A stretch of DNA of 64,000 nucleotides from Levilactobacillus mulengensis. Its GTDB lineage: Bacteria; Bacillota; Bacilli; Lactobacillales; Lactobacillaceae. Location: positions 1 to 64,000 of the forward strand of contig NZ_RHNW01000011.1 in the NCBI RefSeq assembly GCF_003946045.1, in the 5' to 3' direction. The translations under genes were made by a program, and so were the position numbers. Position 1 is the first letter of the stretch. The number at the start of each line of letters is the position of its first letter. Positions 4,086 to 58,141 of the stretch are shown in pieces. A model generated the notes under the pieces. The model was not told the origin of the DNA. It did not search any database and saw only the letters and a program-made list of their open reading frames with translations.

Positions 4086-4348
4086 GTGTACGCAATGAAA
4101 ATAGTTTAAAATGGGACAGTTTTTTGTGGTCGTCCTGTAAATGAATCGGTAATTAAGTAAACACGCGGGGAAATCCAGGCGTTCATCCGGGTTTCACCGG
4201 CACCAAAGATGGATAGAACATGGTACCAGCAAATTATAGGGACAATCGTTACCCTGGTTTTCAATTTATCATCGCTGACAAATAGTTCGTGGGGTGTTAG
4301 GATAATCTTAAAAGGGGTAGTCGGTGCTCGTGAAAGGGGTGGCAGTTG

Positions 4349-7300
4349 ATGTTTAAAGAAAAATGGCAACATCGTAGTCAAGTTCAGCGGCCTAGTTGTC
4401 GGTGGATCTATGCTGGTGTCACCCTGGTGAGCTTAGGGGCGGGGGTCATGCTCGTCACGACGCCGGTCTTTGCGGATACTCGTGAGACGGCTACCGGCGA
4501 TGGCGCGCCCCAAACGGAGAACGTGACGGCCACCCAAACGACACGTTCGGCCACGCCGGCTGATGTGTCGCAGTCCGGCCAAACTGGTACCGGTTCTGGG
4601 ACTGGTGCCGTTCAGAAAGGCACTGGGACGTCAGACAAGACAGCGACGCCGGAAAGTCCGGCTAAGCCCGTGACACCGAGTCCTGAACCGACAACGAAAA
4701 CAGCACCAACGACTGGAACGGAACCAACACCAACGACTGGGAAGACGCCAGAGACGCCCGCGCCAACTGATACGCCGACGCGGACGACGGTGAACTTCAA
4801 GCCAACGGTTCCAACCGAGAAAACAACTACGGCAATCAAGCCATCGTTTCGAGCGGCTCGCTACTTACTAGCGAGAGGCGCGGCGCAACCAACGGGACAA
4901 GACGACCCGGCGACTGAAGATTCGGCGACCGTGACATCAGATACCACCCCTGCGAGCGATGTGCCGACAGTACCCGCTACAACGGCAGCCGTGACCACGA
5001 CTCCCGATGCCGATACGCAATCTGCGTTAACCTACACGTTAAATGACGGCAAGGACGGCTACGTGGTGACGGGCTTTGCCAATCAAGCACATGGCACGCA
5101 GCTTACGATTCCGGATACCTATTTAAACTTGCCCGTCACGGAGATTGCTGCGAACGCCTTTAATGGGGCCGGACTGACGGATGTGACGTTGGGGCAGAAC
5201 CTACAGGTCATTTGGGATCATGCGTTTGCGAATAATCAATTAAAAACAATTAAATTTACGAGTGGTATCTGGTCCGTGGGGGCCGGGGCGTTTGCCAATA
5301 ACGACTTGGTGACGGTTGATCTGGGGAACTTGCAGCAGATCAACGCCGGGGCCTTTCAGAGCAATCAGATTCAGCGACTGGTTCTTCCCGACTCGGTGAC
5401 TAGTATTGCGGACGATGCCTTTGAAAATAATACGATTCAGTCCCTGACGTTGAGCCAAAAGGCGGTCTCAATCGGGACGTCGGTGTTTGCGAATAACCAG
5501 ATTCAGGGCCACTTGGTGTTACCTGAGACGCTGACCGCGCTGGGGGATCAGGCCTTTGCCAACAATCAACTGACCGGGTTGACCTTAGACGCTGGCTTGA
5601 GCCTGCTGAACACCGGGGTATTTGCCAATAACCAACTGACCGGCACGTTAACGGTTCCCGCCACCATCACCAGCATTGGGGATGACGCCTTCGATGGGAA
5701 CCAGTTGACTGGTTTGCAGCTGGACGATAGCGTGACATCGATTGGGACGGCCGCGTTTGCGCATAACCGATTAGCTGGGCCACTTAACTTACCAGCCAGT
5801 CTGACGCACTTGGGGGACCAAGCCTTCTGGGATAACCAGTTGCGGAGCGTGACGTTGAATGATAAATTGACGGAGATTGGGCCGCAGACGTTTGCCGATA
5901 ATCAGCTAACGGGCACCCTGAATCTGCCGGACAGCATCTTAAACGTGGGGACATCGGCCTTTGCCAATAACCAACTGACCGGTTTGACCGGTGGGACCAA
6001 GCTGAACACGATTGAAAAGTATGCCTTTTACGGGAATAGATTGACTGGAACGCTGACGTTGTCGGATCAAATGACCAGTATTGGTGAGTCCGCCTTTGCG
6101 GGTGGCAACCAATTGACGCGACTTGAGCTGGGAACGGCCCCGTTGTCAACGATTGAAACCAATGCGTTTGCCAATAATAACTTAACGGGTGTTCTGAATT
6201 TTCCGGATACGCTGACCAACATTGGAGCCGATGCATTCGTGAATAACCAATTGACCGGGTTGACCTTTGGGACCGGTTTGGTGACCGTTGATGATGAAGC
6301 GTTTGAACATAATCAACTAAGTGGGACCCTGACGCTGAGCGACAATGTCCATGATGTCGGGAAATATGCGTTTGCCTATAACAAGTTGACTGACCTCGAA
6401 ATGGGGTCGAACATGAACAGCTTGGAAAATTATTCGTTTGCTTATAATAGCTTACAGAAAATCAATGCTCGCGGCCAGATTGCGACGATTGGCGACTATG
6501 CCTTTGCCGGTCAAACCCTGTTGAACGCTGGTATTGCAGGAGCTATTGTGGCGAATCAAAATGGCACCATCACTACGGTAGCTTCTGGGGTGCAGCAGGC
6601 GATTCGCGATGCGCTGGGGATGAAGAATCTTGATATTGCGGGATTAACCTTCATTTTCACCGACAATCAAGCCCAACTGGTCTATGATCCGGTTACGGAT
6701 ACTTTGACGCTGCCGACTGTTTCTGACAGTGCGACTTTGCCGGATTGGGTGCAGAACGGCAAGGTGGTTCTGAGCCTGACGACTACCAGCACTGATACCG
6801 GTCGTTATGGCGTTGAAAACCTCAGACTGGACTTGAATCGGTGGGTCACGGACGACGTGGCGATTCCGAGTAATCTCAGCCGCGACCCTAGCATGATCGA
6901 CATGTTGAAAGGGATGCGGGTGGATAAGGCGTGGGGGATTACCGACCGCGTTGGCAATACGCAAGTGGTTGTGACGGTTCCCGTGATTGGCGGGTACACC
7001 GCGAACAAGAAGACCATTACGGCGACGGTCAATCCAGACGGCACGATCACGGCCAATGAGGATGTCTTGTACACGCCGGACCTAACGCCCGGCGGTGGCG
7101 GCCATGATACAACTAAGCCGACACACCCCGGCGACACGACTGATCCGGACACGCCTGTGACGCCGGTTAACCCGGGAAATACGCCCGGTGGTGATCCGGC
7201 CGTGACGCCAGTGATGCCTCCAGCGACACCAGTCGTCACGCCGACGACTGGTGGAGATAAGGCCATTCCTTATCCACCTAACTTTGACGGTGGAAAATCG

Positions 7301-7687
7301 CAGACAAAGCAGGGGTCGAACGCCCATCAGGCTGGCGTCGTTTCACCGAAACTGGCCATTGAAGGACCAAACTGGCAACTGAAACGCGTCGTGCCGCAAC
7401 GCTTGACGACAACTGGCATCCGGCAACGGGGCACAACACGGATGACAGTCGCTACGTCAGGGTATCAGGTTAACTCACAGTTTGAGGGTGGCCAGGTTAC
7501 CCGGACAGAGCAACAGTCCACAGCCGACTTACAAGCCACGAATCCATCACGGCCATCGGCGTCAGCTGTTAAGCAACAGACGTTACCGCAAACCAATGAA
7601 CACCCAACTGGTTGGCAGTGGTTAGGGACGATGTTGCTGGTCGGATTGAGTTGGTTAGGTTTAGCTCACAAGCGAAATCACAATTGA
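4349..7687 (+). CDS. LPQTN-anchored BspA-type leucine-rich-repeat surface protein (1)
   Basis: A 1112-residue cell-wall protein. The N-terminus has a signal peptide: a basic head, a hydrophobic stretch WIYAGVTLVSLGAG, and a probable cut after PVFA at about residue 43. A Thr/Pro/Ala-rich low-complexity stalk follows to about residue 225. Some 21 BspA-type (LRR_5) repeats of about 22-23 residues, with the core AFANNQLTGLTL, run from about 245 to 720. A second, beta-rich region and a Pro/Thr linker follow. The C-terminus has the sortase signal LPQTN near residue 1079, a hydrophobic helix and a KRNHN tail. BspA-type repeats often mediate binding to host or bacterial surfaces, so an adhesion role is inferred. 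GGGGTGG precedes the ATG at 4349; a TTG lies one codon upstream. Codons are GC-rich, unlike the next two paralogues. Confidence 0.9.
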   Translation: MFKEKWQHRSQVQRPSCRWIYAGVTLVSLGAGVMLVTTPVFADTRETATGDGAPQTENVTATQTTRSATPADVSQSGQTGTGSGTGAVQKGTGTSDKTATPESPAKPVTPSPEPTTKTAPTTGTEPTPTTGKTPETPAPTDTPTRTTVNFKPTVPTEKTTTAIKPSFRAARYLLARGAAQPTGQDDPATEDSATVTSDTTPASDVPTVPATTAAVTTTPDADTQSALTYTLNDGKDGYVVTGFANQAHGTQLTIPDTYLNLPVTEIAANAFNGAGLTDVTLGQNLQVIWDHAFANNQLKTIKFTSGIWSVGAGAFANNDLVTVDLGNLQQINAGAFQSNQIQRLVLPDSVTSIADDAFENNTIQSLTLSQKAVSIGTSVFANNQIQGHLVLPETLTALGDQAFANNQLTGLTLDAGLSLLNTGVFANNQLTGTLTVPATITSIGDDAFDGNQLTGLQLDDSVTSIGTAAFAHNRLAGPLNLPASLTHLGDQAFWDNQLRSVTLNDKLTEIGPQTFADNQLTGTLNLPDSILNVGTSAFANNQLTGLTGGTKLNTIEKYAFYGNRLTGTLTLSDQMTSIGESAFAGGNQLTRLELGTAPLSTIETNAFANNNLTGVLNFPDTLTNIGADAFVNNQLTGLTFGTGLVTVDDEAFEHNQLSGTLTLSDNVHDVGKYAFAYNKLTDLEMGSNMNSLENYSFAYNSLQKINARGQIATIGDYAFAGQTLLNAGIAGAIVANQNGTITTVASGVQQAIRDALGMKNLDIAGLTFIFTDNQAQLVYDPVTDTLTLPTVSDSATLPDWVQNGKVVLSLTTTSTDTGRYGVENLRLDLNRWVTDDVAIPSNLSRDPSMIDMLKGMRVDKAWGITDRVGNTQVVVTVPVIGGYTANKKTITATVNPDGTITANEDVLYTPDLTPGGGGHDTTKPTHPGDTTDPDTPVTPVNPGNTPGGDPAVTPVMPPATPVVTPTTGGDKAIPYPPNFDGGKSQTKQGSNAHQAGVVSPKLAIEGPNWQLKRVVPQRLTTTGIRQRGTTRMTVATSGYQVNSQFEGGQVTRTEQQSTADLQATNPSRPSASAVKQQTLPQTNEHPTGWQWLGTMLLVGLSWLGLAHKRNHN

Positions 7688-7702
7688 ATTTAACGGTTTA
7701 CT

Positions 7703-7745
7703 AGTACGATTGACACGTTTTCTGTGTGTTGACCGTACTTTTTTG
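7703..7745 (+). terminator. Terminator after surface protein 1
   Basis: AGTACG...CGTACT, with an inner ACAC/GTGT pairing, is followed by TTTTTT. The remaining 7746-8064 gap carries the shared box AATCGTTATCCC (7913-7924). A weak promoter may lie there: TTGGTT 7952-7957, TATCAT 7976-7981, 18-nt spacer. Confidence 0.7.
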
Positions 7746-8064
7746 TGAAATTTTTTAATTTTCAGAAAAAAGTTTTTTCACCACACTTTTTTGATTGTGT
7801 TACGAGATTGCTCTGGGGTGATTCGGTTGTGCTCAAGTAAATAAGCAAAGTCACTAATTGTGGTAGGTGTGGGGGAAATTTGGTTCGATAAAAAACATCT
7901 GCATATAGCGGTAATCGTTATCCCCCTTGGCAATTAAGTAACACTGGTGTTTTGGTTAAGTCGTGATAGTATGAATATCATAGAATATTTCGCATAAGCA
8001 ACTAATGCGAAACGAAACGGTCTGTAAACTAATCACTCGAAGACACCAGCGAAGGGAAGATATC

Positions 8065-10932
8065 ATGCGGAACAATAAGGATAGGGGAGAACAACTTACT
8101 CCTACACACAGCAAGTGGCTGTTCATTAGTCTGACGATTGCGGCACTAAGTACAGGAATCGCCATTAGTGGTGAGACGGCTAACGCTGATACGGAACCCG
8201 CGACTTCCCAAATTAGTGATGAATCAACGCAAAATGATGTTGATTCAGATGTGAAAGCACCAAAAGCAGAAGTTGCCGATACAGCGAAAGATGAAAATCC
8301 TGACGCTGGTTCGGATAATCAGTTAGATGTTGAAAAAGATGAGAATAGTTCCAACCAGTTAGACAATGAAGAAGATAATGGTGAAGACACGATTGATGAG
8401 GATGAAGAAAAGTCTGAGGATGAGACCGAAGATGAGACCGAAGAACCTGTCAGTCCAGCAAATACGCCTGATGAAACGGTGACACCCGCTCCAACGAATG
8501 AGCAAACCGAAAAATCTGATTTTACCTTTCACCAAACTAGTGAGAACACAGTTGAAGTAACCGGGTATACAGGTGCAACACAACAGCAGGCCGATGGATC
8601 AGCACCAGTTTCAGGTTATAGTACCGAGATTACAATTCCAGATATGTATGAAGGCAAGTATGTTTCTGGTATCGCGGATAATGCGTTTAACAATGACGGT
8701 TCGGCTAATGATCACTTAACGATTGTTCCCGCGCTGACTAAGGTCACCCTGGGGAAAAACTTAAATTACATTGGACAGAATGCCTTTGCCAACAATGCGT
8801 TAACGTCTTTGACGTTGCAGGGAGCCACCTGGATCAACATCAAGGAAGGCGCATTTAAAAATAATGAATTGACTAACGTTGAATTGAATGGTGCCGTTCA
8901 GATTGAACAGGACGCGTTTAAGGGAAACCGGTTGACGACGTTAGTCTTGCCAGATACGGTGAACGCTATCGGCGCATCAGCATTTGAAAATAACCAGCTG
9001 ACCGATTTGACGTTGAGTACGGCACTGGAAAGTATTGGAACCTCAGCTTTTGCTAATAACCAAATTGTTGGGGCACTGGTCTTACCAGCAAAATTAAAGA
9101 CGTTAGGCGAGTATGCATTTGCAAATAATCGCTTAACGTCAGTGACCCTTAATCAGGTGTTAACTGATTTAAACACGGGAACCTTTGCCAATAATCAGTT
9201 AACTGGACTATTAACCATTCCAGACAATATTGTTCGGATTGGAGATAGTGCTTTTAGCAACGACAAAAAGAAGGGAACCGGTCTGACCGAGCTTCATTTG
9301 GGGACCGGTGTTCAGTACATTGGCAATCAGGCGTTCACGGATAACGCACTGACAAACTTAGAAATACCTGATACGGTAAATAAAGTTAGTGTTGGGGATG
9401 AGGCGTTCAGCGGCAATCAGCTACAGACGCTCAAACTAGGGAAAAATGTCAGTACAATTGGGAATTCTGCGTTTGCGGACAATCAGTTAACGGAGATGCT
9501 TAATATTCCTGATTTGGTTGAAAAAATTGGTAATCAAGCTTTCATTGGTAATCAGTTGACCGGACTGGATTTAGGTAGTCAGATTACCTCGATTGGTGAT
9601 TTTGCCTTTGCGAATAATCAGTTGGGTGGTACGCTTATCTTGCCTGAAAAGGTTAGTCTTGTGGGCAAATCAGCTTTCGAAGGTAATTCATTGACAGGAC
9701 TACAGTTAGTCAATAAAGAGGCCTCTTTAGGTGATAGTGCTTTTGCAAGGAATGCGTTGGGAAAAATTAATTCAGCGGACATGACCTGGTCAAATGGGGA
9801 CAATGTCTTCAGTAATCAGAAAGCATTAACACTAGCAAATGTGCCAATGTCGACAACGTCAGCCCACAATATTAAGGGGCTTTTAGTTAAACAACTTAAC
9901 ATGAAGCCTAGTGATATTGGGCAGTTAACGTTTACTCCGAGTGACGGAACTAGTTTGAAATATGATGAAACGACTGATAGTTTGTTGTTACCTCAGGTTT
10001 TTGACACAAGTCATGATGGTGAATTGACAGTTACGTTCACAACGAACACGGCATTTACTGGTCAGCTTGGGTTTCGGGCCCTGACTTTGGACCTACATGT
10101 ATGGACTTTTTCGGGCCAAGTTGAAATACCAGTTGCTATCAAAGATATTAATAGCAAGTACGTCTTTAAGAGTATTTGGTCCGCTGTGGTTAGTGGTCAG
10201 GTAGGATCGACCCAATCAGTTGCTGTGCCAGTCATGGCTGGTTATCGAATTCTTAATCCAGATACGCAGCGGGATATAACCACTTTTACCGCCTCGATTG
10301 GTCCAAACAGGGTAACGACGCCAGATACAATCGAGTATTTGCAAGTCGCATCCGATGGCAACGAGTCAGGGACGACGACACCCACAAAGGAAACGGAACC
10401 GGTTGACCCTGAAACGGGCGAGACTGTAACGCCGCATCCAGATGGCAGGGCTGAAACGACTGCAACGTCGAATCCAACTGGCAACACGCCAGATAGATTA
10501 TCCGATAAAACGGTGACTGATGGAACAACTAGCACATTAGATGAATCAGCCAACCATCAGATTGGCTCAGAACAGAAAAAACAAGTGCAGGTACAAAAAG
10601 CGTGGGCGCCAGTGCAATATCGGCTAGCGAACGCGCCGGTTGCGAGACAATCGGGCAAGCGGGCGCATGTTGCCTATATTTCTGCTCAACCAAAGATACA
10701 ACAAGCGGATTGGGCAAGTCGTCAGGCAGAGACACCGGCTGACTCAGTTGACGTCAATGGCTCAATGACTGAATCGGTATCGACCCAACGCATGGGGCAA
10801 GCTAAGATGGTCATGACGGCAACATCGCTGCCACAAACGAGCGAACAAAACAGTCAGCGGCGCTGGTTAGGAGCCATTGGATTAGCGGCCGCTAGTTGGC
10901 TGGGGTTTACGAAGAAAAAACAAGATGATTAA
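8065..10932 (+). CDS. LPQTS-anchored BspA-type leucine-rich-repeat surface protein (2)
   Basis: A 955-residue paralogue of the preceding protein. The start is the ATG at 8065, behind GAAGGGA; upstream in-frame codons lack a ribosome site. A signal peptide, KWLFISLTIAALSTGIAI, is cut near ETANA. A very acidic stalk rich in Asp and Glu occupies about residues 55-140. About 17 repeats of the IG..AFANNQLT type follow from about 200 to 580, then a beta-rich domain. LPQTS lies near residue 922, with a hydrophobic helix and a KKKQDD tail. The base composition is clearly more AT-rich than protein 1. It would be exported by Sec and linked to peptidoglycan by sortase; the ligand is unknown. Confidence 0.9.
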   Translation: MRNNKDRGEQLTPTHSKWLFISLTIAALSTGIAISGETANADTEPATSQISDESTQNDVDSDVKAPKAEVADTAKDENPDAGSDNQLDVEKDENSSNQLDNEEDNGEDTIDEDEEKSEDETEDETEEPVSPANTPDETVTPAPTNEQTEKSDFTFHQTSENTVEVTGYTGATQQQADGSAPVSGYSTEITIPDMYEGKYVSGIADNAFNNDGSANDHLTIVPALTKVTLGKNLNYIGQNAFANNALTSLTLQGATWINIKEGAFKNNELTNVELNGAVQIEQDAFKGNRLTTLVLPDTVNAIGASAFENNQLTDLTLSTALESIGTSAFANNQIVGALVLPAKLKTLGEYAFANNRLTSVTLNQVLTDLNTGTFANNQLTGLLTIPDNIVRIGDSAFSNDKKKGTGLTELHLGTGVQYIGNQAFTDNALTNLEIPDTVNKVSVGDEAFSGNQLQTLKLGKNVSTIGNSAFADNQLTEMLNIPDLVEKIGNQAFIGNQLTGLDLGSQITSIGDFAFANNQLGGTLILPEKVSLVGKSAFEGNSLTGLQLVNKEASLGDSAFARNALGKINSADMTWSNGDNVFSNQKALTLANVPMSTTSAHNIKGLLVKQLNMKPSDIGQLTFTPSDGTSLKYDETTDSLLLPQVFDTSHDGELTVTFTTNTAFTGQLGFRALTLDLHVWTFSGQVEIPVAIKDINSKYVFKSIWSAVVSGQVGSTQSVAVPVMAGYRILNPDTQRDITTFTASIGPNRVTTPDTIEYLQVASDGNESGTTTPTKETEPVDPETGETVTPHPDGRAETTATSNPTGNTPDRLSDKTVTDGTTSTLDESANHQIGSEQKKQVQVQKAWAPVQYRLANAPVARQSGKRAHVAYISAQPKIQQADWASRQAETPADSVDVNGSMTESVSTQRMGQAKMVMTATSLPQTSEQNSQRRWLGAIGLAAASWLGFTKKKQDD

Positions 10933-10943
10933 TAGCAACGCTG

Positions 10944-10981
10944 AAATGGGACAGATTCCAACGAATTTGGCCCATTTTTTT
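10944..10981 (+). terminator. Possible terminator between surface proteins 2 and 3
   Basis: AAATGGG pairs with CCCATTT across a 20-nt loop and is followed by a T run. No promoter is evident in the 81-nt gap after it, so some readthrough into the third gene is likely. Confidence 0.6.
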
Positions 10982-10990
10982 CAGGAGAGG

Positions 10991-11014
10991 ATGGGGTTCC
11001 AACGACAAAATTAA
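10991..11014 (+). CDS. Leader ORF of 7 codons, coupled to surface protein 3
   Basis: ATG at 10991 starts the peptide MGFQRQN and ends with TAA at 11012-11014. The stop overlaps the next start as TAATG. The only good ribosome site in the gap, GGAGAGG (10984-10990), sits directly before this ATG and about 23 nt before the large gene. Coupled translation is inferred. Confidence 0.45.
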   Translation: MGFQRQN

Positions 11015-14000
11015 TGACGGAAAACCGGCCATTGACGGCTGGACAGAAAAAATGGTTGTCAACCGGTCTAACGGTGATCAGTTTGAGTGCAGGCTTGGCG
11101 TTGAATGCCAACATTCTCAAGGCCCAGGCGGCAGACCAGCCGGCAACGACCGCCAGTAGCAGTTCGGTGACCGCGGTCACCCCTAGTGAGCCGACGACCA
11201 CTGACACGGCGGATAAGACTAAGGAATCAACGGCGACAGAAACAGACAGCACCAAGACTACCGAGAAACAGTCTGCGGGGGATGAGGACGCCGAAAAGAA
11301 TCAGTCGACCGCGACTGATGAACAGTCGGATACGGAATCGCAGCCTGATGTGAAAGAAGAAACGCCGGCTGAACCTGTAGCACCACAGAATCAGGGGCCA
11401 TCGTCATCTGAGCTAAACGATGATGAGAAGACGGCTGGGAGTGATGAGAAAGATTCAAAACAGTCCGACCAGTCTAAGGTAGTCAAGTCAGTTCAAAAGC
11501 AACAGGTGAAGCCGGCAGATAACGATAAGAAACAGACAGTGCCACCAGTAGAAACGACTGATGAGAAGACTGATCAGCAGAAGTTTGTGGTGGCTGACAG
11601 CCAATTGTTTAGTTCGCGGTTATTTTTGTCACGCATGAATGTACCTATGGCTGCGAACTTGTTGGCTGATATGGCCGATACATCTGTTGAGACGCCGACT
11701 ACTGAGACGGATAAGAATGGGGTTGTTTATCAAAAAGTTACGAGTCAATATGGTGATTCGTATACTATTACCGGCTACACAGGAACTAGTTCGGAGGTTA
11801 CCATTCCGGATGTTTTTGACGGTGCGTGGGTGACAGCGATTGGTGATAATGCTTTTGCTGGTAAAGGATTAACGAGTGTAACTTTTGGTGCGAATATTAC
11901 CTCAATTGGTAATAGTGCGTTTCAAAACAATAGCCTCACTAGTGTCATTTTGCCTGACAAATTAGGTGTGCTAGGAAAACAAGCATTTGAGCATAACACG
12001 TTAAAGAGCATTACATTTGGGGAACATACTACTGTTTGGGATATTAGTGATGAGGCCTTTGCAAACAATGCTTTAGAAAAGCTTTCACTACCCGATTCAC
12101 TTACGGAAATTGATGATTCAGCATTTGAGAATAATCTATTGAATTCGGTTCAGTTGGATGAGGGCTTAACAACTATTGGTACAAGTGCTTTTGCCAACAA
12201 TCGATTGACTGGGGCATTGACAATTCCAGATGCTGTTACAACAGTTGGGGCCTCGGCCTTTGCGGGTAACCCTGATGGTACTGGTAATCAGCTGACAAGT
12301 GTGACCTTTTCTGGGGGACAACTCCAAGAGATCTTTGATGATGCCTTTATGAATAATGCTTTGAAGACAGTTAGCTTTACTAATCATGATAAGAATCCTT
12401 TGTTAGTTGATGATTCTGCATTTGCTGATAATGGTGACTTAACTCAGTTAACTTTGAATGATGGTCTTAAAAATATTGGGCCAAATGTGTTTGCCGGGGA
12501 TAGTCTTTCTGGTACGTTAAAGTTGCCCAATTCGTTAGAAACGATTGAAAAAAATGCATTTGCTGATAATGACTTAAGCGGAATAACATTGGATACCGTT
12601 GAAAGTAAGTTAAGTAGTATTGGGGAAGATGCTTTTTTTGGTAACCAGATTTCTGGTGCGTTGTCACTGGACGATAATTTAACGACTCTGGCGGCAGCCG
12701 CTTTTCAAAGTAATCAGATTAGCGATGTCCGCTTTGGCAATGACTCTGCATCAAGCAAGTTGACATCAATAGGAAATTATTCATTTGCAGACAATCCTCT
12801 TAATATTACGGTAGAGGAGGGTGGACTGGTTATTCCCAATAAGGTAACGTACGTTGGTATCTCATCTTTCAGCAGCAATGATGAGAACAAAGCGAGCCAC
12901 GTAGCTAAGTTGACGTTGGGACCAGCTGTGACGGATATTGGGGCTTCAGCCTTTGAGAATGATGGGCTGACTGGCGCGTTAGTTATTCCAGATAGCGTCA
13001 AAACAATCCGTGCTTCAGCTTTTAAAGACAATACATTGGATAGTGTGGCTCTAGGAAATTCAGTCACTTTGATTGATGATTCTGCGTTTGAGAACTCGGG
13101 CTCAACCAGTTCAATGGTCATTCCAAATAGTGTCAAGACAATCGGTTCATCGGCTTTTAAAAATACGCAGTTAAATAATTTAACGCTGGGTACCGGTATT
13201 ACCACGATTGGTTCATCAGCTTTTGAATATGCAGGACTGGTTAATAGTTTAGTCATTCCAAAGGATGTCAAAACGGTTGGCCCTAGAGCGTTTGCTGGTA
13301 ACAAGCTAAAAGATTTAACTTTAGGCCAAGGTCTAACTGGTGAAGATGGTAGTGTTGGCAATGAAGCCTTCGCTGAAAATGATTTACAGACGATTCATAA
13401 CACTGCAGAAGAAATTAAAAAAATTGAAAATTTAGGTGACGATGCTTTTGCAAACCAAGAAGAATTGACCGTTGAAGTTAGTCGTGAAGGAAATCGATTA
13501 ACTGGCGTGAAAAAAGCAATCGAGGATAAGCTGGGCTTAACATTGACTTCACCAGTGTTTACCTATGGCGGCACAGAACTAAAATATGATGATTCAGACG
13601 GCGGTACGTTAACATTTTCAGAAGAAATTAGTGGAACGAGTCTAGTATTAGCGGTAAGCTCGGGAACGACAGGAGGTAGCACGGATCATTCTGGGAATTA
13701 TGAAACTCAGAAGTTGACGTTAAAATGGCTCACAACCAGCAATTCTGGCACCAGCACGCCAGGTACACCAACGGCTCCTGAAACTCCTGGTACGCCAGGC
13801 GCATCGACACCAACCACGTCAACGACGCCTAAAAGCAAATTACCTAAGAATAAGTCACCTAAAGCCAAGTCACCAAAACCCAAGCACCCAACAACCAATA
13901 CCGGCAAAACAGCGCCCAAGCAGCCAGCAGGGAAGCCAACGCGGCAACCAGCCACGCAGTATCCCGTGCAAGCGCAAGGACACCGGGCGACCGCGACTGC

Positions 14001-14250
14001 TCGGCGGCCACAATCGCTGAGCTGGAATCAGCTCACCACGACGCGTGCAAACGGGGCCTCGACCCCCGCAACCGGCTGGCACTACAGCCAAGCTCAAGGT
14101 ATCTGGGTGGGGTCCGCTGGCACGCTAACGCCAGCCACCTCGGCGACGCTACCGCAAACGCGTGAACAGCCAGCGACCGGTTGGCAACTAGTCGGACTAG
14201 CCCTCTTGTCCGGCCTCAGTTGGTTCGGGTTACGGCGCAAACGCAACTAA
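11014..14250 (+). CDS. LPQTR-anchored BspA-type leucine-rich-repeat surface protein (3)
   Basis: A 1078-residue third paralogue. A signal peptide, KKWLSTGLTVISLSAGLAL, is cut near AQA. The stalk is rich in Ser, Thr, Lys and Glu to about residue 200. About 23 BspA-type repeats follow (ASAFENN, SIGNSAFQNN and similar) to about residue 830. Then come a short beta-rich domain, a Lys/Pro-rich linker that repeats KSPK and KPK, and LPQTR near residue 1046 with a hydrophobic helix and an RRKRN tail. The repeat core is AT-rich while both ends are GC-rich, so the gene looks mosaic. The ATG at 11014 has no close ribosome site; it overlaps the stop of a 7-codon leader ORF. A cell-wall adhesin role is inferred from the architecture. 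Confidence 0.9.
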   Translation: MTENRPLTAGQKKWLSTGLTVISLSAGLALNANILKAQAADQPATTASSSSVTAVTPSEPTTTDTADKTKESTATETDSTKTTEKQSAGDEDAEKNQSTATDEQSDTESQPDVKEETPAEPVAPQNQGPSSSELNDDEKTAGSDEKDSKQSDQSKVVKSVQKQQVKPADNDKKQTVPPVETTDEKTDQQKFVVADSQLFSSRLFLSRMNVPMAANLLADMADTSVETPTTETDKNGVVYQKVTSQYGDSYTITGYTGTSSEVTIPDVFDGAWVTAIGDNAFAGKGLTSVTFGANITSIGNSAFQNNSLTSVILPDKLGVLGKQAFEHNTLKSITFGEHTTVWDISDEAFANNALEKLSLPDSLTEIDDSAFENNLLNSVQLDEGLTTIGTSAFANNRLTGALTIPDAVTTVGASAFAGNPDGTGNQLTSVTFSGGQLQEIFDDAFMNNALKTVSFTNHDKNPLLVDDSAFADNGDLTQLTLNDGLKNIGPNVFAGDSLSGTLKLPNSLETIEKNAFADNDLSGITLDTVESKLSSIGEDAFFGNQISGALSLDDNLTTLAAAAFQSNQISDVRFGNDSASSKLTSIGNYSFADNPLNITVEEGGLVIPNKVTYVGISSFSSNDENKASHVAKLTLGPAVTDIGASAFENDGLTGALVIPDSVKTIRASAFKDNTLDSVALGNSVTLIDDSAFENSGSTSSMVIPNSVKTIGSSAFKNTQLNNLTLGTGITTIGSSAFEYAGLVNSLVIPKDVKTVGPRAFAGNKLKDLTLGQGLTGEDGSVGNEAFAENDLQTIHNTAEEIKKIENLGDDAFANQEELTVEVSREGNRLTGVKKAIEDKLGLTLTSPVFTYGGTELKYDDSDGGTLTFSEEISGTSLVLAVSSGTTGGSTDHSGNYETQKLTLKWLTTSNSGTSTPGTPTAPETPGTPGASTPTTSTTPKSKLPKNKSPKAKSPKPKHPTTNTGKTAPKQPAGKPTRQPATQYPVQAQGHRATATARRPQSLSWNQLTTTRANGASTPATGWHYSQAQGIWVGSAGTLTPATSATLPQTREQPATGWQLVGLALLSGLSWFGLRRKRN

Positions 14251-16448: not shown

Positions 16449-17252
16449 ATGAAAATTGGTTTTATCGGCGTCGGCGGAATGGCTCAAGCCATAATCGGCG
16501 GCCTGCTCAAGGCGAAAACGTTTGCGCCTAGCGACATCATCGTGCACAGTCATCGTCCAGAAAGCTATGGCCCTTACGCTAAGGCCCACGGACTCCAAGC
16601 AGCAGCCAGTAATCCGGATGTTGCGGCGGCCAGCGACCTGGTCGTCTTAGCCGTGACCCCCAACGTGGCCAACGACGTGCTCCAGGAAATTGAAGCGCAA
16701 CTGGTTGACGGGCAAAAGACGTTGATCTCTATCGTGGCCGGGCTGTCCCTGACAGACATGGCCAACGTGGTGGGCGAAAACGTGCCAATTTTACGGACGC
16801 TGCCCAACGTGAACGTTGAGGTGGGCGCGGGGATGACCGCCGTAGCCGCCAACACGCATTTGACCGGGGATGACCTGGCCGCTGCGTTGCGCGTGTTCAA
16901 TACGATTGGCTCCACGACCACGTTAGCCGAAGACCAATTCGGCGTCTTCAGCGCGTTGGCCGGGAGTTCACCAGCCTACATCGACTTCTTCATCGACAGT
17001 CTGAGCCGCGCCGGCGTTAAGCACGGGCTAAGCAAGGACCAGGCCACCAAGATTGCGGCCCAAGCGACTTTAGGTTCCGCTAAAATGGTTCTGGAAAGCG
17101 ACAAGATTCCGTTTGCCCTGATCGACCAGGTCGCCTCACCAGGTGGTAGCACCGTGGCCGGGTTACTGGCGATGGAAGAGGCCGGGCTGATGACGGCGGT
17201 GGTCAAGGGTATCGACGCCACCATCAAGCGCGACGCCGGCGGTCCAGCTTAA
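16449..17252 (+). CDS. proC: Pyrroline-5-carboxylate reductase
   Basis: A 267-residue enzyme that reduces 1-pyrroline-5-carboxylate to L-proline with NAD(P)H. The N-terminal Rossmann motif GFIGVGGMAQAIIGG binds the cofactor. The C-terminal signature DQVASPGGSTVAGL, around residue 223, is the P5CR pattern. Family length is about 265-280. The strong site AAGGAGG lies in the end of the upstream peptidase gene. The stop codon overlaps the first helix arm of a structured repeat (17251-17480), which may end or stabilise the message. Confidence 0.96.
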   Translation: MKIGFIGVGGMAQAIIGGLLKAKTFAPSDIIVHSHRPESYGPYAKAHGLQAAASNPDVAAASDLVVLAVTPNVANDVLQEIEAQLVDGQKTLISIVAGLSLTDMANVVGENVPILRTLPNVNVEVGAGMTAVAANTHLTGDDLAAALRVFNTIGSTTTLAEDQFGVFSALAGSSPAYIDFFIDSLSRAGVKHGLSKDQATKIAAQATLGSAKMVLESDKIPFALIDQVASPGGSTVAGLLAMEEAGLMTAVVKGIDATIKRDAGGPA

Positions 17253-17480
17253 AGCACCTTTGCGTGTCGGGGAGTTCCGTTCCCGGCGGCGGGCTCAAGG
17301 CGCCCTGCTGTGGGGCCGGTTCCAGCCTGAGAAGCGGGCTTCCACCTCGACTTTGAGCCTGAGAAGCGGTCTCAAAGGTCGTCCCATGGGCTAAGCTGAG
17401 TGAGAAACCTCAGCTAAGACCATCGACACAGCCGGGCGCCTTGGCCCGCCTCTGGTCACTTTAGACTGGTTGGGTGCTTT
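17251..17480 (+). ncRNA. Structured repeat element, copy A
   Basis: This 230-nt copy folds as nested helices. The outer helix is AAAGCACC (17251-17258) with GGTGCTTT (17473-17480). P1 is GGCGGGC (17288-17294) with GCCCGCC (17444-17450), continued by CAAGGCGCCC with GGGCGCCTTG and by GCTGTG (17307-17312) with CACAGC (17427-17432). Two inner hairpins carry the loop CCTGAGAAGCGG; one has the stem CTTTGAG/CTCAAAG. A further hairpin is AGCTGAG/CTCAGCT (17394-17415). Related copies lie at 17608-17827, 23654-23872 and 57861-58073. Whether it acts as RNA or as DNA is inferred, not shown. Confidence 0.6.
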
Positions 17481-17607
17481 GAGTCTGGCTGCTCGGCTAT
17501 TGTGGACTAGCTGCCTAATGCTTTGAATGGTGTATTGTGGACGCTGTCATTTAAAATCAGTGCTACCAAGGACATGGACGACCGTAATACGCGATGCTAG
17601 TCGGTTA

Positions 17608-17827
17608 GTTTGGCTGGGGTTCGGAGCCGGAGACAGACAAAATGGGACCCGCTGTGTCAGTGCTGTAAGGCCGGGAGATTTTTCCCGGCCTTACAGCACG
17701 GGACGAGCTTGGAGACGCTGTTTCTTGCGGCTTCAAGTCGAGCCGTAGGACCGTTCCTCAGGCCGAAGGCGGTCCCCATAGCGGGTCGCGTTTTGGCGGT
17801 CGCAGGTGGAGAACCCCAGCCCCAAAC
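17608..17827 (-). ncRNA. Structured repeat element, divergent copy D
   Basis: Read on the minus strand, this copy keeps the loop GCCTGAGGAACGG and the ACCCGCT/AGCGGGT helix aligned with GCTGTG/CACAGC. It also has a much longer terminal hairpin, CTGTAAGGCCGGG with CCCGGCCTTACAG, at 17661-17695. The outer helix is GGCTGGGGTTC (17612-17622 on plus) with GAACCCCAGCC (17811-17821). It lies head-to-head with copy A, just before the nagA promoter. Confidence 0.45.
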
Positions 17828-23643: not shown

Positions 23644-23652
23644 TGGTATAAT
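23644..23652 (+). promoter_or_regulatory. Extended -10 promoter in front of repeat copy B
   Basis: TGGTATAAT is a consensus extended -10 (TGnTATAAT). The predicted start, near 23659, falls within the first arm of the structured element (23654-23660). The -35 region is poor. Confidence 0.55.
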
Positions 23653-23653
23653 G

Positions 23654-23872
23654 TAGCAAGACTGTACCGTTTCCGGCGGCGGATTCAAGGTGTCCCGCTG
23701 TGGGGGGGGGGCGGCTCCAGCCTGAGGAGCGGTCTTCCGCCTCGCCTGGAAACCTCGCTAAAAATCGCGAGTTTTCCAGGTCGCCCCATGGCCTAAGCTG
23801 AGTGAGGAACCTCAGCTAACGCCATCGACACAGCGGGGCACCTTGATCCGCCTCTGGTCACTGAGACTTGCT
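23654..23872 (+). ncRNA. Structured repeat element, copy B
   Basis: This 219-nt copy has outer helix TAGCAAG (23654-23660) with CTTGCTA (23866-23872). P1 is GGCGG/CCGCC, continued by AAGGTGTCCC/GGGGCACCTT and GCTGTG/CACAGC. One hairpin, with stem CTGGAAA/TTTCCAG, replaces the CTTTGAG/CTCAAAG stem of copy A. AGCTGAG/CTCAGCT lies at 23796-23817. An extended -10 box ends 1 nt before it. The 23873-24083 remainder of the gap has a long inverted repeat (23883-23969) and probably the tex promoter. Confidence 0.6.
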
Positions 23873-24083
23873 AAATTATCCGGATGCGACGATGTAATTT
23901 CAGATTTTTTATTTCGTTAAACGTTCCCTGCGGTTAATACTGGTTTAGCTCGTGGCATCGTCGTATTCCTATGGCGTGTTGTTAGCTGTTTTATCTGGTA
24001 ACACTATTTCTCTAGGAACTTACAAAACTGAATATAGAATAATTTAAAGACACTTATTTAAAAAATTAGAACGGAGGGGTTGC

Positions 24084-42520: not shown

Positions 42521-42844
42521 ATGCTCGAAGTTGGCTTCAATCATCAGTTATCCGGGGTGTACGGCGTGTCGCTAGCCGGCATGGTCTTGTTGGCGGTCAT
42601 CGTGGTCCCACTGGTTCAGAAACGGTGGCACCGGCGCTACCCCGTGCTCAACAGTATGTGGTGGCAACTGACACCCATCCTGGCATTTTCGGCGGTCCAA
42701 ATGGCCTATGTGCGGTTTAATTTAGTGTTGGGTGGGCTGTTTTTATTGATTGATCTGATGCTCATTTTGGATGGGTATCAGCGGCAGGTCGCTAGGCAAC
42801 GACATGATCAGCAGGAAAACAAACGGCATCAAAAAAACGTCTGA
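42521..42844 (+). CDS. Small membrane protein of unknown function
   Basis: A 107-residue protein with three hydrophobic segments (VYGVSLAGMVLLAVIVVPLV, LTPILAFSAVQMAYV, LVLGGLFLLIDLMLIL) and a basic, Gln-rich tail. No family is recognised. AAAGGAGG precedes the ATG. The last three codons and the stop lie inside the left 41-bp direct repeat of the island, so the gene end is a target of the recombination that built it. Confidence 0.8.
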   Translation: MLEVGFNHQLSGVYGVSLAGMVLLAVIVVPLVQKRWHRRYPVLNSMWWQLTPILAFSAVQMAYVRFNLVLGGLFLLIDLMLILDGYQRQVARQRHDQQENKRHQKNV

Positions 42845-42872
42845 GATTTTTATCTCAGGCGTTTTCTAGTGA
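42832..42872. repeat. Left 41-bp direct repeat of the island (terminator)
   Basis: This 41-bp block is identical to 53637-53677. It contains the inverted repeat ACGTCTGAGAT/ATCTCAGGCGT with flanking A and T runs, so it is a bidirectional terminator. It overlaps the end of the preceding gene. The sequence between the two copies is clearly more AT-rich than either side. Confidence 0.85.
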
Positions 42873-53636: not shown

Positions 53637-53677
53637 AAAAAACGTCTGAGATTTTTATCTCAGGCGTTTTCTAGTGA
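53637..53677. repeat. Right 41-bp direct repeat of the island (terminator)
   Basis: Identical over 41 bp to 42832-42872. It serves as the terminator of minus-strand pepC and of the island. Before insertion the small membrane protein gene and pepC would have shared a single copy. Confidence 0.85.
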
Positions 53678-56252: not shown

Positions 56253-56336
56253 AAAACGCGCCTGGGATTTCTCTCAGACGCGTTTGTTATTGCAATTTTA
56301 GATGGTGGAACCAGCTAACCGCCCTATGTCCCACTC
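56253..56336 (-). repeat. GAGTGGGACA 3' element, copy 2, with terminator
   Basis: On the minus strand it begins 8 nt after the rpiA stop with GAGTGGGACATAGGGCG. GTGG(G)AC pairs with GTTCCAC, and the element ends in the CGCG terminator at 56253-56286. It shares its head and tail with 33942-34115. Confidence 0.5.
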
Positions 56337-57860: not shown

Positions 57861-58073
57861 TGGACCAGTCGTGGTAGTGACCAGAGGTGAGCCAAGGTGA
57901 CCAGCTGTGTCGGTGGTCTTGGCTGGCGTTCTTTGCCAGCCTAGTCCACGGGGCAACCTTTGCGACCGTTCCTCAGGCGCAAAGTTGAGGTGGAAGCCCG
58001 TTTCTCAGGCTGGAACCGACCCCACAGCAGGGCAGCTTGAGCTCACCGCCGGGAACGGACGCGACTAGGTCCA
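57861..58073 (-). ncRNA. Structured repeat element, copy C
   Basis: On the minus strand this 213-nt copy has outer helix TGGACCTAGTCG with CGACTGGTCCA (one bulge). P1 is GGTGAGC/GCTCACC, where copy A has GGCGGGC/GCCCGCC. GCTGTG/CACAGC is kept. One hairpin is CTTTGCG/CGCAAAG, where A has CTTTGAG/CTCAAAG. The other is GGCTGGC/GCCAGCC, where A has AGCTGAG/CTCAGCT. The loop motif CCTGAGRARCGG occurs twice. No clear -10 box was found on its 5' side. Confidence 0.6.
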
Positions 58074-58141
58074 TTTTCACCAGCCCGGAGGCGACACCAA
58101 GGACAAACAAAGACAAAAGACTATCAAGGGAGTGTTTTGAC

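Follow-up and report, generated by a model that had tools for sequence, protein, structure and literature searches.

EFAR of E. faecalis and BOX, RUP and SPRITE of pneumococcus are small folded repeats interspersed in intergenic DNA, and the attC sites of integrons are folded-strand DNA sites that lie after genes, with variable sequence and conserved structure. Passages on bcr1 of the Bacillus cereus group give it a length of 167 or 147 bp (PMC2267715). REPs are described as palindromes of 20-40 bp with a GTAG or CGTC tag next to the palindrome (PMC3733652), and as often occurring in inverted pairs (PMC2817692).

Here we describe a repeat found in a 64,000-nucleotide stretch (the window) of the genome of Levilactobacillus mulengensis. 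Like REP and BIME sequences it consists of high-copy intergenic palindromes that are often arranged in inverted pairs; in contrast to the 20-40 bp palindrome given for REPs in the passage cited above, its core is about 190 bp long and encloses a three-hairpin junction. By description alone it also resembles EFAR, BOX, RUP and SPRITE and, with a similar size as far as the cited passages go, bcr1, although the passages on bcr1 and the pneumococcal repeats make no mention of two features of our element, facing pairs and host-derived arms. Its neighbouring copies face each other, whereas attC sites point one way. Our best explanation is that the element belongs to a family of non-coding, high-copy repeats of Lactobacillales made up of REP/BIME-like intergenic DNA hairpins, a reading to which we give a probability of about 0.42. 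REP/BIME would then be its closest working analogue, and the working form would be DNA and not RNA.

Two covariance models were used. R1 was built from 37 own-genome copies (alignment A2, comprising 37 of the 39 copies from the search, with two chimaeric or deleted copies left out), and R2 is a second, core-only model; a further alignment (A6) holds 64 of 74 matches, five of them from the genus g4. The sequence-only reading had located four copies, A to D, in the window, and all four are present at those positions. Their parts are as follows.

17244 to 17258, plus strand: 5' arm of copy A, formed by the last bases of proC, stop codon (17250-17252) included
17274 to 17462, plus strand: copy A, full model range, abundant subfamily (R1, 221 bits)
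17473 to 17488, plus strand: 3' arm of copy A, an imperfect inverted complement of the proC end
17618 to 17815, minus strand: copy D, divergent subtype, convergent partner of A (R1, 90 bits; R2, 115.9 bits over 17647-17786)
23644 to 23652, plus strand: extended -10-like sequence TGGTATAAT adjoining copy B, within the arm repeat
23654 to 23663, plus strand: 5' arm of copy B, TAGCAAGACT
23664 to 23864, plus strand: copy B, full model range (R1, 161.8 bits; fold z -10.0)
23697 to 23702, plus strand: junction-closing helix GCTGTG of B, partner at 23829-23834
23713 to 23741, plus strand: hairpin 1 of B, with the motif AGCC-N7-CGGNCT
23743 to 23783, plus strand: hairpin 2 of B, at the same position as in A and C but of another sequence
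23788 to 23825, plus strand: hairpin 3 of B
23863 to 23873, plus strand: 3' arm of copy B, GAGACTTGCTA
57874 to 58061, minus strand: copy C, a long form of the abundant subfamily, its outer arms shared (R1, 212.6 bits)
58074 to 58090: shared arm of copy C, CTCCGGGCTGGTGAAAA

In the core, a long closing helix is followed by the helix GCTGTG/CACAGC and then by a junction with three hairpins, the first two of which have the motif AGCC-N6/7-CGGNCT in common. Several details of the sequence-only reading are confirmed, namely helix P1 (A: GGCGGGC/GCCCGCC; C: GGTGAGC/GCTCACC) and the strands GCTGTG/CACAGC (17307-17312/17427-17432 in A; 23697-23702/23829-23834 in B). Two CCTGAGRARCGG loops per copy hold for A and C, but B and D have one each, and the stem of D measures 16-17 bp instead of the 13 bp claimed. 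The fold z-score against shuffles was -7.4 for A, -10.0 for B, -6.3 for C and -8.5 for D, with none of 200 shuffles as good for any copy. A scan of the B region for terminators found no terminator-like match inside B, the nearest lying at 23959-23976, 95 nt downstream, and a plain orphan terminator was rejected on this ground; a promoter scan of the same region did not detect the -10-like site. At its junction B carries a run of ten G (23702-23711), longer than in the 36 other rows of alignment A2; slippage in replication or an artefact of sequencing may explain it. Among named loci, which put the window in Levilactobacillus, that of L. wangkuiensis is closest, with 100% identity in the nicotinate phosphoribosyltransferase nearby. 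At the B site of L. wangkuiensis (L089:12939-13045) the 5' part of the element precedes a different short repeat, whose arms are GGATGGTGAAAATGAG/CTCATTTTCACCATC and whose hairpin, GGAGCCAAAGGGCGGTCTCC, contains the AGCC-N-CGGNCT motif. Elsewhere, the window holds a second repeat (42832-42872, 53637-53677 and 56253-56293), present as a 41-nt terminator-like hairpin (AAAAAACGTCTGAGATTTTTATCTCAGGCGTTTTCTAGTGA) in two identical copies and as one 68% relative, and three very large ORFs (1113, 975 and 1078 aa; 4346-14250) with internal repeats in a 66-69 nt register, which we guess to be leucine-rich-repeat-like.

The element is far more abundant than the four copies first counted. R1 finds at least 150 in the own genome, all 150 scored of 1800 first-look candidates being matches; the number is a floor, because the weakest scored match still has an E-value of 5e-33. 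A DNA search of the same genome, with 40 of 333 first-look candidates scored, returned 46 matches, and the best of these for copy A is 94% identical over about 186 bases. The contig containing the window (C3, 114,264 bases) has nine copies by R2, four of them in the window, which scales to about 245 copies in 3.11 Mb. R1 matches 85 of 397 family genomes, spread over 9 of 40 genera, and R2 matches 69 of 395 genomes taken from the order, spread over 17 of 80 genera. One genome (G016) without an R1 match has seven R2 matches, so an R1 count of zero is no proof of absence. The possibility that the copies are a known mobile repeat, named in the sequence-only reading as what would overturn it, is half borne out: they form a high-copy dispersed repeat, but literature searches found no published description of it.

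Among the 37 own-genome copies, 95.8% of cells are paired, and two-sided changes occur at 24 of 61 pairs, where shuffled alignments give 10.9 ± 1.7 and slid partners 2-5. In 69 copies from several genera the paired fraction is 89.9% against 64.1% after shuffling, with two-sided changes at 59 of 61 pairs (1057 cells against 291 ± 16 shuffled), counts which lean towards structure, this alignment (A3) having been made to fit the model. Pairing is poor at some positions of the structure as drawn. Mean identity between copies within a genome is as low as 59% (G010), 57% (G002) and 53% (G020), and all still match the model. The early observation that paired positions change together thus stands, with two-sided changes far above shuffles in both alignments. 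Loop and junction letters are also kept across genera.

Covariation is usually taken to mean that an RNA has been selected. A fold that is maintained as RNA puts up with G-U pairs but not with A-C mismatches. Our cross-genus count is 99 G-U against 132 A-C in 4010 cells, and 33 against 42 at the 44 best-paired positions. As a control we took the acceptor and T stems of 109 distinct tRNAs from the fetched loci, which gave 70 G-U against 14 A-C (Fisher p 6.5e-11 versus the element counts), a figure in which A-C is trimmed since tRNAs with fewer than 9 of 12 Watson-Crick or G-U pairs were dropped. As G-U is no commoner than A-C across genera, the counts agree better with folded DNA than with folded RNA. 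Transcription from both strands would also disfavour G-U and A-C equally, and the wobble preference would be lost under any of three conditions: a DNA fold, such two-way transcription, or template switching. The sequence-only reading had proposed a selected RNA or single-stranded DNA fold: a selected or maintained fold is strongly supported, RNA is not clearly so, and the wobble balance favours the single-stranded DNA option or another DNA-level cause.

The main rival, possible though in our view doubtful, is a structured RNA, either a 3'-UTR element or an sRNA, perhaps read opposite to the model strand, that affects mRNA stability or termination. It gains something from two smaller counts in which G-U exceeds A-C, mainly at single column pairs. 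In 92 copies from the own genome and close sisters G-U is 121 and A-C 107, but 91 of these G-U come from one near-invariant G-T column pair, which may not be a true pair, leaving 30; in 15 g4 copies the counts are 48 and 13, with 42 of the 48 G-U on three neighbouring columns where RNAalifold pairs GGG with TTT, leaving 6. The 5'-side ORF runs towards the element in 36 of the 57 own-genome copies for which such an ORF was called, as this rival would have it. Neither strand shows a wobble preference across genera, however, and no terminator-like match lies inside B.

The strongest counter-evidence to a DNA reading comes from the genus g4 (Lactobacillales). R2 matches 30 g4 genomes, 29 of them once, a result that is partly by construction because five g4 sequences were built into R2; R1 alone matches seven. 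All 15 fetched g4 copies (L249-L254 and L257-L265) lie between purD and purE, genes assigned from Pfam matches at one locus and by visual inspection at the 14 others, a constancy of place that also suits an RNA. These copies fall into two sequence types with compensated changes between them, together with one mosaic (L260). All six g4 loci scanned match the Rfam family SSRC8_2 (Streptococcus sRNA 8, RF02616) with 33.4-44.5 bits and E-values of 2e-9 to 7e-6, below the gathering cut-off of 72 bits. The matches cover positions 138-242 on the strand opposite to R1, and about 100 nt are common to both, including the CTTTGAGCC/GGTCTCAAAG hairpin. Northern blots and circular RACE are reported to show SSRC8 in S. 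pyogenes (PMC3675131). Since the g4 relative partly matches a streptococcal sRNA, an RNA role is possible, and the working form may be RNA at least in g4. Against this, the same scan found no SSRC8_2 match at E<=0.05 in eight Lactobacillaceae loci. Rfam at gathering gave no match to the copies in the whole window, nor did A, B and D match at E<=5, SSRC8_2 included, so that a known Rfam family was rejected for the window copies. The statement that no named family fits is therefore correct for these copies but must be qualified for their g4 relative.

Many cores sit within inverted repeats of unique sequence, in an analysis of arms that covered 60 of 61 copies. For the 38 own-genome copies without the shared long-form arms, the two arms of a copy match each other with a mean of 17.3, against 10.75 (sd 2.8) when arms are swapped. 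Arms above the 95th percentile of swapped arms were found in 19 of these 38 and in 22 of 106 copies in other loci. At A, the end of proC (identified by NCBIfam TIGR00112) serves as the 5' arm, and the 3' arm repeats it imperfectly in inverted form. In the element-free proC-nagA locus of L. cerevisiae, proC is followed by 19 bases and then by the shared ATAACAGAATAAATATCGC; by eye, the inverted copy of the proC end that makes up the 3' arm of A was not seen there, and at this one locus arms as pre-existing hairpins were rejected. With R2, a copy lies within 400 nt downstream of proC in 7 of 26 named Levilactobacillus loci. In family f5, four loci (L266-L269) show several copies with copy-specific arms, and in two of them (L267 and L268) T-rich, terminator-like tails follow the arms, as judged by eye.

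Arms that match unique host sequence, including the proC end, are what would be expected if the element were largely a product of mutation, a long hairpin that template switching in replication perfects and lengthens again and again, its fold without present function. The scarcity of one-sided intermediates beside two-sided states points the same way; columns 136 and 158, for example, hold AT 58 times, GC 33 times, AC once and GT never. The conservation of loop and junction letters across genera, however, goes beyond what template switching alone would give, and one site, purD-purE, is kept in another genus; we regard this explanation as improbable.

Placement also speaks for the REP/BIME-like reading. 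In 49 of 55 copies it is the 5' end that lies closer to a gene (median distance 58 nt, against 377 nt for the 3' end; 55 of 61 copies used, with mechanical ORF calls). Among neighbours within 700 nt, 42 pairs are convergent, A and D being one such pair, eight point the same way (five and three) and none is divergent, after removal of 26 of 163 rows that were opposite-strand readings of the same copy. Sister-species sites are not independent in these counts, and the pairs from loci L209-L248 are no random sample because these were chosen as high-scoring copies. In the 26 named loci, which were not picked for copies, all six pairs are convergent, two of them at proC-nagA. The genes around 40 pairs are of mixed orientation (15 ++, 12 +-, 9 -- and 4 -+), and that the facing arrangement is kept whatever the gene orientation argues against the RNA rival.

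The facing pairs might instead belong to a non-autonomous transposable element, with the pair and its spacer as the unit and a putative transposase as mover, and A, spacer and D are jointly missing from the L. cerevisiae proC-nagA locus. In 13 facing pairs from three genomes, however, partners share 43-59% identity, which does not exceed that between non-partners (means 53-59%), and on this basis recent terminal inverted repeats were rejected; one sister genome carries a single member of a facing pair. Set beside the terminal inverted repeats of MITEs, the arms are complementary but copy-specific, and no clear target duplication was seen in comparisons with empty sites, which are strongly diverged. 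Nor is there a correlation with Y1_Tnp, the RAYT companion of REP/BIME and the only transposase family examined: PF01797 is absent from G002, G005, G012, G017, G023 and the incomplete G006, all with R1 copies, and present in G022, which has no R1 match (R1 search only). A Y1 transposase was accordingly rejected as the mover. With copy A and the g4 relative as blastn queries, plasmid and phage records gave no match, and presence on plasmids or phages was likewise rejected. A transposon of this kind is the least probable of the explanations we weighed.

Many sites are shared between sister species among the matches listed. In hand-picked ortholog groups the core diverges by 2% to 27%; the 5' flank is usually less diverged than the core and the 3' flank about equally (0.03-0.34). 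Since core divergence is close to that of the 3' side, the core is not clearly faster than intergenic DNA, and conversion is not proved. Pair changes between orthologs number 131 two-sided and 126 one-sided, as summed over pairwise comparisons and not all compensatory. Two sites carry a different core type in a sister species, in one case within the same outer arms, which suggests that cores may be replaced at old sites.

In the REP/BIME-like reading that we favour, the DNA would act as a cruciform or as a folded single strand exposed in replication, and would be recognised through its conserved loops and junction. Stems might keep their complementarity through selection on the fold, through intrastrand template switching that copies one arm of the hairpin onto the other, or through both; copies would spread by rare insertion at gene edges, and cores would be replaced at existing sites. 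Copy number, fold, covariation, the wobble balance across genera, arms, placement and convergent pairing are observed; a recognising factor, a benefit and a copying step are what we infer. A more specific proposal, which we consider unlikely, is that these are order-wide DNA-fold sites, in which facing pairs of junction-type hairpins mark gene edges, a putative host factor recognises the folded strand, and template-switched synthesis copies the arms from the flanking gene. If this were true, each site would carry a mirror copy of its own neighbour.

The element combines overwhelming covariation with the lack of a wobble preference across genera, and is thus a warning against the inference from covariation to RNA. 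It provides a naturally occurring example on which DNA folds or template-switch repair can be tested. Furthermore, the family annotates intergenic DNA of many fermentation bacteria and links it to a streptococcal sRNA family.
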